Shown here: piece by piece, positions 1 to 36,895 of the stretch
How the letters are laid out: each line of letters opens with the position of its first letter
How positions within the stretch are numbered: position 1 is the stretch's first letter
NCBI GenBank assembly: GCA_947173495.1
Contig: CAMWFQ010000015.1
Coordinates: 62,001-126,000, forward strand
Direction: 5' to 3'
Length of the DNA stretch: 64,000 nucleotides
Origin: an uncultured Lachnospiraceae bacterium
GTDB taxonomy: Bacteria > Bacillota > Clostridia > Lachnospirales > Lachnospiraceae
The notes under the pieces: generated by a model
The model's input: only the letters and a program-made list of their open reading frames with translations
Told to the model about the DNA's origin: nothing
The model's database searches: none
Translations under genes and position numbers: made by a program

Positions 1-214
1 TTGCGCCGGCTCCGCTGCCTGTTTAAAATCTCCTGCTATTTTCTATGTTATTTGGAAAATAAGCATACGATTACCGGATAAACTCCGATAATAACAGATT
101 TTTAATCAGACGGGAAAGCGCGTTTCCAAAAACAATAAGAATTGATTTACAGATTTCATCTCTATATGCTTAAATTGATAATGCCATAGTACCATAGAAA
201 GAAATGTTTTTCAA
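1..214 (-). promoter_or_regulatory. Promoter and structured leader of an off-window gene (leader copy 1)
   Basis: Read on the minus strand, this is a third copy of the promoter plus leader that precedes the Rpn-family genes at 23780 and 31672. It has a -35 TTGAAA (209-214), a 17 bp spacer and a -10 TACTAT (186-191). Then come TAAGCATA (165-172) and its complement TATGCTTA (60-67). A hairpin lies between CCGATAAT (85-92) and ATTACCGG (70-77), with one U-G pair in the RNA. The later part of the leader and the gene itself lie beyond the left edge. An Rpn-family gene there is an inference from the other two copies. Confidence 0.65.
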
Positions 215-20696: not shown

Positions 20697-20950
20697 TATG
20701 CGCGGGGGGGGCGCAAGGTAAATTGCTGTTACGCAGCACGCGCCCCGCGCGCGAGTAGGGAGAAAACCTTCCCTACTCGATTAAATACGGATTTGGTAAC
20801 CACTTGAAAGCCGCGCGGAAAAGGAGTAAGATTGAAAATTAGAATTTTCAATCGCGAGATTTGTGTCTGCGCGCTGCCTGCCACAAACTCGTTAATCCAT
20901 TTTGGATTTAGCCATATCATGGCTTTGCGCAGCAAAGCAGCGCAGAAATG
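20697..20950 (+). repeat. Multi-hairpin intergenic repeat, copy A (both halves)
   Basis: This 254 bp gap is almost all inverted repeats. The left half has a GC-rich stem (about 20700-20751), then a perfect 10 bp stem CGAGTAGGGA/TCCCTACTCG (20752-20761, 20770-20779). The right half has GATTGAAAATT/AATTTTCAATC (20830-20840, 20843-20853) and CGAGATTTGTG/CACAAACTCG (20855-20865, 20882-20891). Three short perfect hairpins follow at 20894-20908, 20910-20924 and 20922-20938. The right half recurs at 22521 and partly at 36805; the left half recurs at 60013. It ends just before the GH51 start. Confidence 0.8.
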
Positions 20951-22456: not shown

Positions 22457-22520
22457 GCAGAGAATTACCACTAAGTTAAAGACCTTGCCGAGGTCACCTG
22501 GCTCGCTGCTTGCGGGATAA

Positions 22521-22645
22521 GATTGAAAATTAAAATTTTCAATCGCGAGATTTGTGTCTGCGCGTTGCTTGCCACAAACTCGTTAAGCCATTTTATGGAT
22601 TTAGCCATATCATGGCTTTGCGCAACAAAGGAGCGCAGAAATGGA
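22521..22645 (+). repeat. Multi-hairpin intergenic repeat, copy B (right half)
   Basis: This is closely similar to the right half of copy A. It has the perfect stem GATTGAAAATT/AATTTTCAATC (22521-22531, 22534-22544), then CGAG-A-TTTGTG/CACAAACTCG, then the AGCCAT/ATGGCT hairpin and a weakened GCTTTGC stem. As in copy A, it ends a few bases before the ribosome site of the next gene. The 22488-22520 stretch upstream is unrelated to the left half of copy A. Confidence 0.78.
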
Positions 22646-23446: not shown

Positions 23447-23779
23447 TTGAAAAATATTTCACTCCATGTTATCATGGTAACATCAAATTAAGCATATAGA
23501 GATGTAATCTGAGAATCAATTCTTATTACAATAAGCAGGTTCGCGAAGCTGGCAGTGCTTGTTGTTTATGGGAAAGTCTTTTCCTGTCTGATTAAAAATC
23601 TGTAATTACCGTATCTCATCCGGTAATCGTATGCTTATTTTCCAAAGAACATAGAAAATAGCAGAAGATTTTAAACAGACAATGAGGGCGGATGGGTTTT
23701 TATGGAAATAACCGACTTATAAGTGGGGAAGCGTTTGTTGTCCTTTATGATCTTCTGCAGATAGGAGGATGAAGGGACA
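23447..23779 (+). promoter_or_regulatory. Promoter and structured leader (copy 2) before Rpn pseudogene
   Basis: The promoter is TTGAAA (23447-23452), 17 bp spacer, TATCAT (23470-23475). The leader has TAAGCATA (23489-23496) able to pair with TATGCTTA (23630-23637), and an internal hairpin ATTACCG/CGGTAAT (23605-23611, 23621-23627). Just before the start, GTCCTTT (23740-23746) pairs with AAGGGAC (23772-23778) and ATCTTCT (23750-23756) pairs with GGAGGAT (23764-23770), burying the Shine-Dalgarno. The same parts occur in copy 3 at 31303-31671. Confidence 0.72.
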
Positions 23780-24371
23780 ATGGACGGAGCGGAAGAAAAA
23801 AAGGACATTGTTGGGAACGAGCGGAAAAAGGAATGTGGAAAGGAATATAGGACATGGACTGAAAAAGACATTGCTGAAAAGACTTTGGAGGCTCATAATG
23901 ACGTATTTGCGGACATAGTCAATGTATTGCTGTTCCAGGGGCTGCATTTTGTGAAAGAAGATGAGCTGGAGGAAGAAAGCCCGAATTCCAGTTATAAAGC
24001 GGATGGCAAATTACATGCCCAGGAGCGGGATGTTGCGAAATACTGGAGGAAACAGAAGTTATGCGGCATCAGAGACTACAATAAGGCATGTACACGAACT
24101 GCTGCAGTTAATGGCAGTTATGACGCATGACAACCGTTTTGAAAATGTATACAGTCCTGATATGGAAAGGAGAACGATGACGATGTGTGAAGTATTGGAT
24201 CGCGTGGAGAACAGGGGGATTCAGAAAGGAATAATTCAGGGAGAAGATACTATTCTTTCATTGATGAATTACCTGTTGAGTAATAATCGAACCGAGGATG
24301 CGAAAAAAGCGACAGAAGACAGGACTTATAGAAATAAGCTGCTTACAGAAGTTCTTGGAAAAAAACGGTAA
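23780..24371 (+). pseudogene. Internally deleted Rpn-family PD-(D/E)XK gene
   Basis: The first frame (23780-24130) starts like Rpn-family recombination-promoting nuclease/putative transposase proteins: residues 32-93 include ADIVNVLLFQG and ERDVAKYW. It then runs into the wrong frame. The C-terminal part (ASETTIRHVHELLQLM, then MCEVLDRVENRGIQKGI) continues in a second frame to 24371. The middle of the family, about 120 residues with the catalytic core, is missing at a junction near 24060, and the frame is shifted there. Both gene ends, the full leader and the terminator remain. It cannot give an active nuclease. Confidence 0.72.
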
Positions 24372-24432: not shown

Positions 24433-24516
24433 TCTGTTTCCAGCCTTCTGCTGTCTGATACCGATGAACAAAATCACCTGCTTTGTGAACAAAACGGACA
24501 GCTTCGGCATGTTTTC

Positions 24517-24546
24517 TTGCGGTTTATCATAAGAAAATGGTATAAT
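24517..24546 (+). promoter_or_regulatory. Probable promoter of STAND/ligase operon
   Basis: TTGCGG (24517-24522), an 18 bp spacer and TATAAT (24541-24546). The segment 24445-24550 is similar to 32740-32840, which ends in an equivalent promoter after the other Rpn gene. Confidence 0.55.
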
Positions 24547-24602
24547 TTCCAGAAAATGACGGGATATCTTTACCCGAAACCATAAAAAGGGCGGATGAAA
24601 GT

Positions 24603-29366: not shown

Positions 29367-29409
29367 AAATCAGGTTGTAATGAAAGAATGGAAGGAGAAA
29401 ATCAGAACA

Positions 29410-31200
29410 ATGCAGCAAAAGCAAACAGGCTGCCCGTCCGTTGACAGACCCTGGCTGAAATACTACAGCAAGGAGGCTGTCAGCGCGCCACGTCCTGAAG
29501 AAACAGTATATGAGTATTTGTATCAGCACAACAAAGACTATTTCACGCAGACAGCACTGGAATATTTCGGTACAAAAATCAGTTTCAAAAAGTTATTTCA
29601 TCAGATTGAGCTGTGCGCAAAAGCGTTAAGGGCAAACGGAATAAGCGCCGGCAGTATAGTGAATATTTGTTCGTCTGTAACTCCCGAAATTACATACCTT
29701 GTGTTTGCCTGCAGTAAAATCGGCGCTTTGGCCAACTTTATTAATCCTCTTTTTGAAACACAACAAAAGATTGACAGAATGAACGATACCAATTCCGATA
29801 CGCTTTTTGTGATGGATAAAATGTATTTTTATATGAAGGATGTTATTCCCAAAACTTGTTTGAAGAAGGTCATAATCATGCCTGCAACGAATTCATTGCC
29901 TGTGGCAATGCGGGCGTTTGCCCATTTGAAAGAGAAGCCTGATGAGGATATGGAAACTGCGCTTAAAAACGGAGAATATATTTTCTGGAACGACTATATA
30001 AAAAGTGTTTGTAAGAATTATGATTTTGCAGAAGAGCAGTTTAAGAAAGACATGCCGTTGGTCATGGTATATTCATCAGGAACAACAGGCGCATCAAAGG
30101 GCATTGTACTTACGAATAACGGTATCAACGCGACAACATTGCAATATGAGATGACTTTACCTTTCAATGAAAAAAGAGAGAACAGATTTTTAAGTAATGT
30201 TCCAGTATGGTTTTCAACAGGGATAGTTGTATCGCTGCTCACACCTTTATGTCTGGGAGCAACTTGTATTTTAGAGCCTGTATTCAGTTCGGAAAGTTTT
30301 TTAAGGGATATTATTAAGTATAAGCCTAATTATACTCTGGTGGCAACAAGCCTGTGGATATATGCAGCGAATCATCTTCAGGAAGATTTTGACCTTTCAT
30401 TCCTGAAACATCCGATAGCTGGCGGAGAGCAATTGTTAAGCGAAACAGAAACATTTCTTAATAAATTTCTGAAAAGCCATAATTGCCATCTGGAGTTACA
30501 AAAGGGTTGGGGTATGTGTGAATTGGGTGCAACCGCGGCTACAACAAGCTGCTGTGCCGGAGCGAACAAGCTCGGATCGGTGGGGATTCCCATGCCATTT
30601 GTCACTATAAGTTCATTCGACGTTGATAGCGGCATGGAGCTAAAATACAATGAGCGGGGCGAAATATGTGTTCAAACGCCCTGTAAAATGAAGGAATACT
30701 ATAACAATCCTGCTGCAACGGAAGAATTTTTCCATATCGACATAAATGGTAAAGTATGGGGCCGGACAGGAGATATTGGTTATGTGGATGAGGAGGGATT
30801 TGTCTTCATCCTGGGCAGGGCAAACGATTTTTTTATTTCTCCGGATGGCAGGAGACAATATTTGTTTGATGCTGAGAATGTAATACTGGAAAATGATTTT
30901 GTAGATTTGTGTGAAGTGATTTCTATTAAGAGTGAGCAGTTTGGAAGGAGCATTTCGCTGGCGCATATTGTTTTAAAGAAAGAATTTAACGGAAATATAA
31001 ACGATCTTATTTGTGATGTTGACAGGTTATGCAGGGAAAGACTTTCTGAATATGCTGTTCCACTGGGCTATAAAATCCGCGAGGGATTTGCAACTAAGCC
31101 GAGTGGAAAACGTGATACGCTGTCGCTGGAGAAGGAGCTTGATGGATTTATGTGTGTTGTCGATGGAAATATTCTTCCTTGCGGCTCGCTAAAATTTTAA
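29410..31200 (+). CDS. Class I adenylate-forming enzyme, copy 2
   Basis: A 596-residue relative of copy 1, starting MQQKQTGCPSVDRPWLKYYS. Motifs: VYSSGTTGASKGIVLT, GWGMCELGATAA, TGDIGYVDEEG, GRANDFF, and the C-terminal KPSGKRD with the catalytic Lys. ATG 29410 follows GGAAGGAGAAAA; an ATG at 29380 lacks a ribosome site. Copy 2 is visibly more AT-rich than copy 1, which suggests a different history. Its first 87 bp region (29382-29468) recurs with three mismatches at 33341-33427, in front of an internally deleted third ligase. Neighbouring PlsC-like genes suggest acyl activation for lipid acylation, as in split versions of Aas. That link is inference. Confidence 0.88.
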   Translation: MQQKQTGCPSVDRPWLKYYSKEAVSAPRPEETVYEYLYQHNKDYFTQTALEYFGTKISFKKLFHQIELCAKALRANGISAGSIVNICSSVTPEITYLVFACSKIGALANFINPLFETQQKIDRMNDTNSDTLFVMDKMYFYMKDVIPKTCLKKVIIMPATNSLPVAMRAFAHLKEKPDEDMETALKNGEYIFWNDYIKSVCKNYDFAEEQFKKDMPLVMVYSSGTTGASKGIVLTNNGINATTLQYEMTLPFNEKRENRFLSNVPVWFSTGIVVSLLTPLCLGATCILEPVFSSESFLRDIIKYKPNYTLVATSLWIYAANHLQEDFDLSFLKHPIAGGEQLLSETETFLNKFLKSHNCHLELQKGWGMCELGATAATTSCCAGANKLGSVGIPMPFVTISSFDVDSGMELKYNERGEICVQTPCKMKEYYNNPAATEEFFHIDINGKVWGRTGDIGYVDEEGFVFILGRANDFFISPDGRRQYLFDAENVILENDFVDLCEVISIKSEQFGRSISLAHIVLKKEFNGNINDLICDVDRLCRERLSEYAVPLGYKIREGFATKPSGKRDTLSLEKELDGFMCVVDGNILPCGSLKF

Positions 31201-31302: not shown

Positions 31303-31671
31303 TTGAAAAATGTTTTGCTCTGTGATATTATGATGTTATCAAATTAAGCATATAGAGATGTAATCTGTGAATCAAATCTTATTACAATAAGCCGGCCTGT
31401 GAAGCGTGGCAGTGTTTGTTGGTTGTGGGAAAACACTTTCCTGTCTGATTAAAAATCTGTAATTACCGGAGTTCATCTGGTAATCGTATGCTTATTTTCC
31501 AAAAAATATTCCGCCGAATCAACTGGCGGACAAACAGAAAATGGCAGAAGATTTTAAACAGACAATGTGGTGCCGGCACAGACGGGTTTTCCTTATAATA
31601 AGCCGGCTAGAAAGTGTAGCGGCGTTTGTTGTCCTTTATGATCTTCTGAGGATAAGGAGGATGAAAGGACG
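31303..31671 (+). promoter_or_regulatory. Promoter and structured leader (copy 3) before Rpn-family gene
   Basis: The promoter is TTGAAA (31303-31308), 17 bp spacer, TATTAT (31326-31331). The leader has TAAGCATA (31345-31352) with TATGCTTA (31487-31494), and hairpin ATTACCGG/CTGGTAAT (31462-31469, 31477-31484). GTCTGATTAAAAATCT (31443-31458) can pair with AGATTTTAAACAGAC (31549-31563), which excludes the TAAGCATA pairing in a simple fold. A CCGCC/GGCGG hairpin (31511-31529) is unique to this copy. The terminal hairpin pairs GTCCTTT (31631-31637) with AAAGGAC (31664-31670) and ATCTTCT (31641-31647) with GGAGGAT (31656-31662), covering the Shine-Dalgarno. Confidence 0.75.
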
Positions 31672-32628
31672 ATGAACCAAAGGGAAGAAAAAAGGGATAC
31701 CGTCGAGAAGGAGTTTATCGCATTTCCTGATATAGCGGCGGATACCCTCAATGCGTTGTTGTATCAGGGACAGGCACTGGCAGATGCGGGGAGTCTGTGG
31801 CCGGGGCCGACGGAGACAATCTATCAGGGAAGAGAGACGCTCAGGGATCAGTACGAAGACTTATCCAAATATGAACTGATTGACGGGCGGATCAGGGTGA
31901 TGTACCTGATTGCGAACCAAACCGGAGTGGATAGTAAGATGTTGCTTCGGAAGGCCGGATATACGGGAGGCATTTACAGGGAGCAGTATGAGGGAAAGAT
32001 ACAGGATATCTTTCCCGTGATCGAGTTAATACTGTACTGGGGGAAGCCTAGGTGGAAGAGCAGCCGAGATATCCGCTGCCTGTTTGCAAAACGGAGGCTT
32101 CCCGACGGAATGTGGAAATACATAGACGGGATAAAGCTCCACATATACGAAATGAGGTATTTGCCGGAGGAGACCAGAGAGCTATTTCAAAGCGATATGC
32201 GCATCGTGGTTGATTATCTGGCAGAGGGAGAAAGCTACCGTTCAGAGAGAAAGATCATGCACAAGGCGGCTTTGATTAAAATGATCAGAGTGCTTTCGGG
32301 AGAAACGGATACAGATGACGTGGAGGAATGGCTTACAAATCAGGGAATTAGAGAGGAGGACGAGATCAGCATGTGCGAATTATTTGACCAGTATGAAAGA
32401 AAAGGCCGGGAAGAAGGAAAGAAAGCGGGTATTGTAGCAGGCCGGAAGGAAGGCCTGATTGAAGGGAAAAAGGAGGGCATCGCAACCGGAATAAAATGCG
32501 GCGAGGCCAGACGTCTTGTGACAGATATTGAGAATGTTATGAGATTCTTCCAGGTAACGCTGGAGAAGGCATGCGAAGGTCTGGGAACCACTGTGGGAAG
32601 ATATGAGGAAGCAAAGAAGCTGCTGTGA
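31672..32628 (+). CDS. Rpn-family PD-(D/E)XK protein, likely inactive site
   Basis: A 318-residue member of the Rpn recombination-promoting nuclease/putative transposase family. The N-terminus (ADTLNALLYQGQ), central core (about 55-235) and C-terminal basic/acidic tail rich in EEGKK/KEG repeats (about 255-283) fit the family. In relatives the core carries an Glu-Asn-Gln-Thr motif; here residues 81-84 read ANQT. The catalytic Glu is replaced by Ala (GCG where GAG would be expected), so nuclease activity is doubtful. Translation starts inside a hairpin that hides its own ribosome site. Family call is fairly sure; loss of activity is inference. Confidence 0.78.
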   Translation: MNQREEKRDTVEKEFIAFPDIAADTLNALLYQGQALADAGSLWPGPTETIYQGRETLRDQYEDLSKYELIDGRIRVMYLIANQTGVDSKMLLRKAGYTGGIYREQYEGKIQDIFPVIELILYWGKPRWKSSRDIRCLFAKRRLPDGMWKYIDGIKLHIYEMRYLPEETRELFQSDMRIVVDYLAEGESYRSERKIMHKAALIKMIRVLSGETDTDDVEEWLTNQGIREEDEISMCELFDQYERKGREEGKKAGIVAGRKEGLIEGKKEGIATGIKCGEARRLVTDIENVMRFFQVTLEKACEGLGTTVGRYEEAKKLL

Positions 32629-32707: not shown

Positions 32708-32748
32708 GCATGAAAGTTTACTTCCTGTTTCTGGCTGCTACTGTCTGA

Positions 32749-32836
32749 CACCGATGAACAAAATCGCCTGTTTTGTGAACAGAACAGGCGAAATCGGTGT
32801 GTTTTATTGTAGCCCATTAAAAGGAAATGATATAAT
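32749..32836 (+). promoter_or_regulatory. Long inverted repeat followed by promoter
   Basis: CACCGAT (32749-32755) pairs with ATCGGTG (32793-32799), and inside it CGCCTGTT (32765-32772) pairs with AACAGGCG (32783-32790). A promoter follows: TTGTAG (32807-32812), 18 bp, TATAAT (32831-32836). The matching segment at 24450-24546 keeps the order and promoter, but its stem is largely eroded. The promoter now leads into the acyltransferase pseudogene. Confidence 0.55.
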
Positions 32837-33322: not shown

Positions 33323-33365
33323 GATGCTACAGGCTCATAAAGAATGGAAGGAGAAAATCAGAACA

Positions 33366-33575
33366 ATGCAGCAAAAGCAAACAGGCTACCCGTCCGTTGA
33401 CAGACCCTGGCTGAAATTCTATAGCACAGAGGCTTTACATACTTCGTTGCCGGAATGCTCCGTTTATCAGTTCTTTTATCAAAATAACAGAGAACGCAGA
33501 GACGCTGACGCCATTGAATATTTTGGAAGGAACTTTAAGACGTTGGAAAAGATGGCGGAAGAAGATGAAAGATAA
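33366..33575 (+). pseudogene. Internally deleted third ligase copy (70 codons left)
   Basis: The frame opens with MQQKQTGYPSVDRPWLKFYS, almost the same as ligase copy 2. It diverges mildly to about residue 57 (AIEYFGRN), then jumps to FKTLEKMAEEDER and stops. That tail resembles a ligase C-terminus (compare DYRTLEAEVGKYL in copy 1), so about 500 codons seem to have been removed in frame. The ribosome site and spacing are intact, so a 69-residue product could still be made, though no function is expected. It overlaps the next acyltransferase start by 11 bp. Confidence 0.65.
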
Positions 33576-35687: not shown

Positions 35688-35745
35688 GTAATGATAAACT
35701 GGCAGGCGGATTGCCCGATCATTCCGGTGTGCATGGTTTCATTAA

Positions 35746-35775
35746 ATTAAGCATATAGAGATGTAATCTGCTATG
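35746..35775 (+). repeat. Truncated copy of the Rpn leader
   Basis: This stretch contains TAAGCATATAGAGATGTAAT followed by CTG, as in leader copies 2 and 3. The sequence then departs completely: no TATGCTTA partner and no start-site hairpin follow before the acyltransferase at 35861. It marks a recombination breakpoint or a decayed leader. Confidence 0.6.
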
Positions 35776-35860: not shown

Positions 35861-36817
35861 ATGAGAAACATTACAGGAACGGAATCATATAATGGATACG
35901 GGCACAGGCATAAGCGGAAGGACAGAGAGATGGAAAGCTTTGCGCGATATAAAAGGAAGAAAGAGCTGATACTGAAAGGCCGGAAGAACCCCCCGGGCAA
36001 TATTGGGAGGAAATTATTCCGTCCGCTGTTCCGCCTGTGTTTATGGATTCAGCGGAAGGCAAACGGATTTTTAGTGGAGAGAATAAATGAAATAAAAATT
36101 CCTGAAGGACGCTCGGTTATTTTTGCCGTCACGCATATAGGGAAGTGGGATTTTGAAATTGTGAATGAACAGATCAGGGAACAGTTTTTTATAGTTGCCG
36201 CTGATTTCGTGCATATGCATGGTACGGTCAGCGGTTTTTTTATGAACCTGAACGGCGTTATCTATGTAGATGAGGAGGACAGAGAGGATAAGGCAAATAC
36301 AAAGAACCTTATGATAAAACTACTTTTATCCGGAAAAAACGTAATGATTTTCCCGGAAGGGACATGGAATTTATCGGAAAATGAGATAATACGGGATATT
36401 GCGTACGGCACTGCCGACGCTGCTGTTTCCGCGGACGCAATAATCGTACCCATTGCCATAGAGCAATATGATAAACGTTTTGTAATATGCCAGGGTGAGA
36501 TGCTGGAACCTGCTGTATTTCAGGCAGACAAACAAAAGCTCACGATTGCCCTGCGGGATGAATTTGCGGCTTTAAAGTGGCAAATCTGGGAAAGAAATGG
36601 GATGTGTCAGCGGAATAGTCTGGCCTGTGATTACTGGGATAAATTTATCCAAAGCCGCCGTATGGAGTGGAAAGAATATTCTATGAGAGAGCAGGTGATT
36701 AATACCTATACCCCCCCCGGGAAATGGGAGTATTGGCAGCTACAAAAAGATTTAGACACAGGTAAAATCCCGTTATGGTACCGGATCTTACTTGCGGAAG
36801 AGAAGATTGAGAAGTAA
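35861..36817 (+). CDS. PlsC-like acyltransferase, copy 3
   Basis: A 318-residue acyltransferase. HX4D is in THIGKWDFE (His92) and the acceptor motif is FPEGTWN (about residue 166). A basic N-terminus (KRKDREMESFARYKRKKEL) is followed by a short hydrophobic region. It resembles copy 1 through the shared ALKWQIWE segment near residue 238. ATG 35861 is chosen: AAGGAAAGAGG precedes it, and a GTG at 35855 is too close to that site. The last codons (KIEK and stop) lie within hairpin repeat copy C, so the original C-terminus may have been replaced when the repeat arrived. Confidence 0.84.
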   Translation: MRNITGTESYNGYGHRHKRKDREMESFARYKRKKELILKGRKNPPGNIGRKLFRPLFRLCLWIQRKANGFLVERINEIKIPEGRSVIFAVTHIGKWDFEIVNEQIREQFFIVAADFVHMHGTVSGFFMNLNGVIYVDEEDREDKANTKNLMIKLLLSGKNVMIFPEGTWNLSENEIIRDIAYGTADAAVSADAIIVPIAIEQYDKRFVICQGEMLEPAVFQADKQKLTIALRDEFAALKWQIWERNGMCQRNSLACDYWDKFIQSRRMEWKEYSMREQVINTYTPPGKWEYWQLQKDLDTGKIPLWYRILLAEEKIEK

Positions 36818-36868
36818 AATTTTTAATCGCGGGATTTGTGTCTGTGTGCTGCCCGCCGCAAACTCGTC
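36805..36868 (+). repeat. Partial hairpin repeat, copy C
   Basis: This is similar to the first two hairpins of the right half of copies A and B. It starts GATTGAGAAG, continues through AATCGCGGGATTTGTG, and ends near CGCAAACTCG. The second stem keeps pairing through G-U pairs despite several changes. It begins inside the 3' end of the acyltransferase CDS. Confidence 0.65.
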
Positions 36869-36895
36869 ATGGCGATATATAAATTTTGGCATATT

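Follow-up and report, generated by a model that had tools for sequence, protein, structure and literature searches.

A conserved, structured 5′ leader with a predicted ribosome-site hairpin on Rpn-family nuclease genes of Lachnospiraceae

Genes for Rpn-family nucleases in an uncultured Lachnospiraceae bacterium and its relatives are preceded by a conserved structured domain that displays compensatory change in helix P3 in one kind of leader (type I) and in helices P1b and H in another (type II). The leader is probably a cis-acting RNA that controls translation of the nuclease gene downstream, in which the choice of pairing partner made by one strand, termed X, would set translation. According to two reports, Rpn proteins include toxic DNases linked to phage defence (PMC5350276, PMC10327210), and RpnL:RpnS ratios vary between native and foreign promoters, which is said to suggest additional regulation (PMC10327210). 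A conserved leader of this kind, hiding the ribosome sites of rpn genes by the dozen, would give a handle on the timing of Rpn production, and this RNA class is one that is backed by covariation, has a defined gene partner and is built of testable helices.

Results

Architecture of the leader and its copies in the window

The window, by which is meant the whole 64,000-nt stretch of DNA that was analysed, contains a complete leader on the plus strand that opens with a sigma-70-type promoter (31303..31331), its -35 element TTGAAA (31303-31308) and -10 element TATTAT (31326-31331) being separated by a 17-nt spacer. Close to the predicted 5′ end of the RNA is the 5′ arm of helix P1 (TAAGCATA, 31345..31352), the 3′ arm of which (TATGCTTA) resides at 31487..31494. 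Four elements lie between these arms: a dispersed intergenic repeat of ~37 nt (31379..31421) that is frequent elsewhere in the genus and is missing from L003, L008, L009 and L013; a weak hairpin, P2 (GGGAAA/TTTCC, 31427..31441), in which 90% of alignment cells are paired and one of five pairs has changed on both sides; the U strand (GTCTGATTAAAAATCT, 31443..31458), a probable partner of X by own-partner permutations; and hairpin P3 (ATTACCGG/CTGGTAAT, 31462..31484), which shows two-sided changes at four of its eight pairs and is absent from four of 17 type I leaders (L046, L080, L058 and L111). Downstream of P1 are an optional hairpin aligned by eye, P4 (CCGCC/GGCGG, 31511..31529), and the X strand (31544..31563), within which the potential partner of strand D, X′ (GCAGAAGAT), overlaps the potential partner of U (AGATTTTAAACAGAC). 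A second copy of the dispersed repeat (31597..31631; parts of query positions 276-334 also match repeat places in relatives) then leads into the ribosome-site hairpin (31631..31670), which is clamped by GTCCTTT/AAAGGAC and contains both D (GATCTTCTG, 31640-31648), in its loop, and the Shine-Dalgarno sequence (AAGGAGGAT, 31654-31662). Predicted leader folds are strong (z of -4.33 and -6.26), and for the RNA at 31340-31690, with the former value, none of 100 shuffles folded equally well.

An earlier, sequence-only reading had placed promoter-leaders at 31303-31671, at 23447-23779 and, on the minus strand, at 214-1, and the sequence confirms all three. Each begins with TTGAAA (31303-31308, 23447-23452 and 214-209 on the minus strand), followed 17 nt later by TATTAT, TATCAT and TACTAT, respectively, and all share the order P1, U, P3, P1 3′ arm, X and Shine-Dalgarno hairpin; P4 is missing from the second and third. 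The second copy (23447..23779, plus strand) has its parts in the same order throughout, and the third (1..214, minus strand) is cut by the window edge and is whole in L003, so that its gene start was taken from the contig. The P1 arms TAAGCATA and TATGCTTA are found at 31345-31352/31487-31494, 23489-23496/23630-23637 and 172-165/67-60. The gap between them, which had been put at 97-139 nt, indeed starts at 97 nt, although its upper end does not reach 139 nt, the three gaps being 97, 133 and 134 nt; the two longer ones contain the dispersed repeat (31379-31421 and 23523-23564), which copy 214-1 lacks. U (GTCTGATTAAAAATCT) faces X as AGATTTTAAACAGAC, or as AGATTTTAAACAGGC in copy 214-1, and the proposed topological overlap with P1 holds, since U is enclosed by the P1 arms whereas X follows after both of them, so that the helices cross. 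Also present as described is the hairpin over the ribosome site, with GTCCTTT/AAAGGAC at 31631-31637/31664-31670 and GTCCTTT/AAGGGAC at 23740-23746/23772-23778. A fourth, truncated copy had been listed at 35746; leader-derived sequence does occur there, but as a 38-nt match only (35733..35770, plus strand), a remnant ahead of an acyltransferase ORF (PF01553) rather than an rpn gene, and TGCTTA was not seen within 120 nt from its start.

Promoter spacing points to the position of the RNA 5′ end. The -10 element ends 12 nt before TTAAGCAT in 16 of 17 type I leaders and 5-6 nt before P1 in 53 of 61 type II leaders. Thus, P1 would be formed by, or near, the RNA's own 5′ end, with transcription likely starting at P1 or a few nucleotides before it. 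This spacing and the downstream gene identify the element as an mRNA 5′ leader with a predicted start site.

Distribution of leader types

The covariance-model search of relatives that had been proposed along with the first description reveals leaders beyond the window, more widely distributed than originally reported. In a DNA search of 98 genomes, including the source genome, few full leaders were found, most matches corresponding to the ~37-nt repeat (query ~77-118). A covariance model built from six leaders (R1) located relatives of the window's three leaders, which are of type I, at 12 places in five of 37 genomes of the genus, again including the source genome; across 299 genomes of the family, the source genome was the sole match under strict filters. 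When 48 regions upstream of Rpn homologues were read, 13 proved to carry type I leaders and 23 type II leaders, whose parts follow one another in the order seen in type I; one of the 48 regions has almost no upstream sequence, and two of the type II leaders (L062 and L109) contain unread bases. The type II model (R2), built from an alignment (A5) of 16 sequences, three of them from other genera, located 55 places in 25 of the 37 genus genomes and seven more, three of which are model members, in six of 397 family genomes representing five other genera. Under strict filters R2 had no match in 392 genomes of the order, an empty result that says little, and the E-values of both models rest on short calibrations.

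The two types have little 5′-domain sequence in common. At E<=0.05 R2 misses L046, L080, L058 and L111, four divergent leaders of type I, so that the argument for a shared ancestor of the two types comes solely from their layout. Within types, core identity falls to 45% (type I) and 41% (type II). By eye, two further leader types occur ahead of Rpn homologues, type III and type IV (L078, L097 and L059; L089, L090, L110 and L096), with an apparent closing helix behind the promoter.

Association with Rpn-family genes

The type II leaders are tied almost exclusively to one kind of gene. From the 62 R2 places (55 and seven), 61 were examined downstream (G019:C44 was omitted) and three of these are cut by a contig end, leaving 58 testable. 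A same-strand Rpn/PD-(D/E)XK nuclease gene or fragment, taken as a match of at least 37 bits starting within 320 nt, follows 55 of the 58; the exceptions are a weak match (L178, 14.5 bits) and two leaders with none (L182 and L163), in both of which the P1 3′ arm appears damaged by eye. Because the 16 model members and ten other places had originally been located through Rpn similarity, the 35 places not previously inspected were also counted separately: 32 are testable, with 29 followed by such a gene, one by a weak match and two by none. Many rpn paralogues carry leaders of their own.

In the window, the gene behind the first leader, P0001 (31672..32628, plus strand; 318 aa), matches PF04754 (Transposase_31) at 27.3 bits against a cut-off of 21. 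Behind the second leader is a decayed Rpn gene of another lineage (23780..24371, plus strand; ORFs 23780-24130 and 23961-24371), recognised by its similarity to L176 (69% identity over 64 residues). P0001 also contains a candidate internal start (GAGAGGAGG, then ATG TGC GAA) that, by analogy with the description of RpnS, might yield a C-terminal RpnS-like product of residues 234-318 (32371..32625, plus strand) (PMC10327210). Membership in PF04754, variable C-terminal tails and this candidate start are the features that the system shares with the RpnL/RpnS toxin-antitoxin pair (PMC10327210, PMC5350276). In another genome, a type I leader (L036:544-667, minus strand) runs straight into a fragment from the C-terminal part of an Rpn gene, as though it drove an RpnS-like piece alone.

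The nuclease genes downstream of the leaders fall into two very different subfamilies. A BLASTP comparison of P0001 with the protein at L161 aligned only the C-terminal module (55% over 51 residues), hhalign relates the two subfamily alignments at 81.5%, and the one subfamily 2 protein scored lies below the PF04754 gathering score (13.8 bits against 21). The leaders do not follow this division, median identity across subfamilies being 0.68 (best 0.86), about the same as within a subfamily (0.70), which implies that the leader has been retained or swapped independently of the nuclease domain. Conversely, one protein lineage bears two leader types. Two kinds of C-terminal tail also seem to stand behind both subfamilies (alignments A8 and A9; L188 and L144), as if exchanged, the sharing being evident by BLASTP for one kind and by eye for the other. 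The shared leader and shared C-terminal modules suggest a regulatory head and an antitoxin-like tail that are both exchangeable. Subfamily 1 proteins of the genus (A8) have IANQ at a site that reads LENE and FENE in two relatives from other genera and YEHQ in subfamily 2 (A9); this is presumably the acidic residue of the ExK/ExQ nuclease motif, replaced by alanine in IANQ.

Covariation in the helices

Compensatory change was counted in two alignments, one of 17 type I cores fitted to the model (A4) and one of 60 type II places with 58 distinct cores (A6); both are fitted to their own structures and hold related sequences, which inflates shuffle tests. Type I shows 20 double-change cells, where shuffles give 8.4 and slid controls 0-9, while the number of double-change pairs (reached in 184 of 500 shuffles) and of pair types (480 of 500) is not above shuffles. 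Type II shows 89 such cells against 27.4 in shuffles and 11-41 in slid controls, and its double-change pair count is reached by 19 of 500 shuffles. These changes are concentrated in hairpin H, where all six pairs have changed on both sides, and in the inner helix P1b (three of seven); P1 itself (one of six) would gain little support from them. In type I, seven of the eight P1 pairs are unvarying in 17 leaders, so that covariation lends no support to this helix. Hence the main helix of the sequence-only reading has its arms where expected but lacks covariation backing in type I. The ribosome-site stem was followed in a plain alignment of 17 of the 20 subfamily 2 leaders (A7, from which L179 and then the poorly aligning L165, L166 and L173 were omitted); 84% of its cells are paired, compared with 40-56% in slid controls, and three pairs have changed on both sides, a modest number matched by 77 of 500 shuffles.

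G-U cells exceed A-C cells by 23:5 in type I and 52:18 in type II, an excess that points to an RNA of this strand. The rejected reading of the leader as a recent repeat without covariation, named at the outset as the outcome that would count against a structured RNA, is at odds with cores that are as little as 45% and 41% identical and still pair with compensatory change.

Long-range pairings

Where alignment was uncertain, the pairing energy of a strand with its own partner was compared with that of the same strand with the partners in other leaders. In type I, U-X pairing gives -13.6 kcal/mol with the own partner and -11.3 with others, a preference reached in 0 of 2000 permutations (N=12) and in 0 of 5000 for eight hand-picked divergent leaders; X-D pairing gives -13.6 versus -11.1 kcal/mol (0/2000 and, for the divergent eight, 84/5000). 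The clamp gives 36/5000 (N=12) and, among the divergent leaders, 517/5000, which is not significant. The set of 12 comprises all but one of the 13 type I leaders, truncated L058 being omitted, with the 23447 copy and the further copies in L036 and L044 lying outside it. The best complement of U falls at X in 11 of the 13, the exceptions being L085 and L058.

For type II, 48 rows with a start codon were reduced to 42 (no N, GCAGG-type anchor) and, after those more than 90% alike were merged, to 31; the first of these steps drops L174-L177 of other genera. In this set X′-D reaches 0/5000 and the ribosome-site stem 4/5000; split by subfamily (N=18 and N=13), the values are 20/5000 and 410/5000 for X′-D and 29/5000 and 140/5000 for the stem. 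A U-X pairing in the style of type I found no support in type II, U against the strand after X′ giving 410/5000 (N=31), and was rejected. The 3′ strand of P1 instead finds its best downstream complement on X in 29 of the 31 leaders; over all 31 its energies run from -12.6 to -19.1 kcal/mol, whereas pairing with the 5′ arm of P1 gives -4.8 to -6.7. P1′-X shows no covariation (1479 of 5000 permutations) and a mean z against shuffles of only -1.4, so that the evidence for it is solely complementarity, whereas X′-D and the type I U-X pairing are backed by own-partner preference. The corresponding P1′-X pairing was rejected for type I, as the best complement of P1′ falls on X in only six of 12 leaders.

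Discussion

A leader that may switch translation

The following model accommodates both leader types. The 5′ domain would be closed by P1 and bear peripheral hairpins, and a downstream hairpin would cover the Shine-Dalgarno sequence and start region while presenting strand D in its loop. X, situated between the two domains, could pair with D, which would lay a pseudoknot across the ribosome site. Alternatively, X could pair with a partner in the 5′ domain, namely U in type I and, in type II, the 3′ strand of P1. Because X cannot fully pair with both partners, the arrangement resembles a translational switch in which the partner choice of X would set translation through an interchange of states. 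X′-D is taken as the putative OFF state on the expectation that it locks the hairpin. By eye, D of type I is also complementary to the Shine-Dalgarno sequence itself, and X′-D might there open the inner D-SD helix, reversing the sign. The signal would presumably act on the 5′ domain; one could guess at the Rpn product itself, in its L or S form, or at a phage- or stress-linked molecule.

Set against the original interpretation, the cis-regulatory structured leader with a covered ribosome site stands, with compensatory change in several helices and no Rfam match, whereas its thermosensor has little support, and folds that switch are only plausible. It seems rather doubtful, if conceivable, that the leader is a new class of sensor-switch RNA gating anti-phage toxin nucleases, in which a specific infection or stress signal would free translation, a single architecture would serve dozens of paralogous, partly swapped rpn genes, and the RNA 5′ end would compete with an internal strand.

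Several other explanations draw on the same observations. The tie to a single protein family, nearly exclusive and maintained over very different subfamilies, and the numerous paralogues each with a leader are what would be expected if the Rpn protein itself, or RpnS as its C-terminal product, bound the leader and set its own translation; such autogenous control can be put forward tentatively, as leader likeness is independent of protein subfamily and one protein lineage has two leader types. A metabolite riboswitch, in which the 5′ domain would be an aptamer and ligand would stabilise P1, the contest of P1 plus X′-D with P1′-X deciding translation, fits the hidden ribosome site, the conserved unpaired stretches in the 5′ domain and the type II topology, where, as is usual, the 3′ strand of the closing helix can also pair with a downstream strand. 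It is rather unlikely, given that 55 of 58 testable type II leaders precede Rpn genes with no metabolic gene set seen, and that the scant 5′-domain sequence common to the two types is unlike a single ligand pocket. Static repression, with the leader merely holding translation of a toxic nuclease low, would require no switching at all and agrees with the stable folds and with the ribosome-site hairpin and pseudoknot being the supported 3′ parts; it too appears unlikely, as a conserved 5′ domain and a second partner for X are needless in a simple hairpin, and U-X has a strong own-partner preference in type I.

Two further possibilities are much less probable. Control by an RNA thermometer or a leader peptide could account for a Shine-Dalgarno sequence hidden by a hairpin, or for the ATG behind X′ in some leaders. 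However, the ribosome-site stems span -3.8 to -22.6 kcal/mol in duplex energy with no common melting element or short metastable hairpin seen, and only ten of 31 type II leaders carry an ATG 8-24 nt downstream of the point where the GCAGG motif begins, three of these ATGs being in frame with rpn, no conserved short ORF behind X′ being found among the 31; control of this kind is improbable. More improbable still is a DNA element, such as the ends of a transposon-like unit or target repeats handled by the Rpn "transposase". Several copies per genome adjoining nuclease genes do match a pattern classed under mobile or repeat candidates in PMC11109978, and yet the orientation is constant (55 of 58 with Rpn downstream on the same strand), the spacing to promoter and start codon is narrow, and G-U cells are in excess. 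The cis-acting leader that controls translation continues to be the preferred reading, and it is filed here as a new class among translation-controlling leaders, not as a riboswitch.

Relationship to known RNAs

The leader had been described as belonging to no recognised class, and Rfam 15 agrees: no family exceeds its gathering cut-off in the window or at 14 loci, and weak-match searches gave nothing credible on the leader. Identity with an Rfam family was rejected, as none was found on it; the matches obtained were an RNase P at another place in L160 and weak ones attributable to chance. Literature searches, which did not extend to the 2017 list of 224 motifs, turned up no account of an RNA leader ahead of rpn genes, nor did term look-ups in the accessible text of three motif-discovery papers (PMC8632094, PMC2864571, PMC11109978). 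The accessible portion of PMC10327210 has no mention of "UTR", "leader" or "riboswitch", and that of PMC5350276 none of "UTR" or "leader".

Comparisons can nonetheless be drawn at the level of architecture. Translational riboswitches with pseudoknots at the ribosome site include preQ1 and SAM-II, and the rpn leader resembles these in its location at the RNA 5′ end, its closing helix, the proposed strand exchange and the predicted pseudoknot over the Shine-Dalgarno sequence; it differs in having no known ligand, metabolic gene set or Rfam match, and in a 5′ domain that depends on leader type. Autogenous mRNA pseudoknots are found in E. coli rpsO, the alpha operon and phage T4 gene 32, which likewise place a start-site pseudoknot on the gene for a nucleic-acid-binding protein; unlike them, the rpn leader RNA begins directly with a long 5′ domain, and protein binding is in this case hypothetical. 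The mobile or repeat candidates of PMC11109978 also have several copies per genome and nuclease neighbours, whereas the rpn leader keeps its orientation, spacing and gene partner constant. The "Transposase-resistance" motif is a candidate RNA without an accession, named with reference to transposases and marked as probably cis-regulatory; it is listed for several phyla and has no Rfam number in the table concerned (PMC2864571), and it is set beside the leader by description only.

Repeats near the leaders

The ~37-nt dispersed repeat (TTATTACAATAAGCYGGCYCGCGAAGCGTGGCAGCGTTTGTT-like) found in the window at 31379-31421, 31597-31631 and 23523-23564 recurs in many of L005-L035. It turns up throughout the genus, in places as tandem copies with a 37-nt period, and has invaded several rpn leaders, among them, as read by eye, L111 and L113. 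Behind the rpn gene is a strong inverted repeat (fold z -4.0; regions 32748-32800 and 24438-24548), and this stretch has a 76% copy behind the decayed rpn gene. Another dispersed repeat, of ~77 nt, occurs at 20827-20903, 22518-22594 and 36802-36878 (78-95% alike), and a 96-nt stretch is duplicated at 95% identity at 29383-29478 and 33339-33434.
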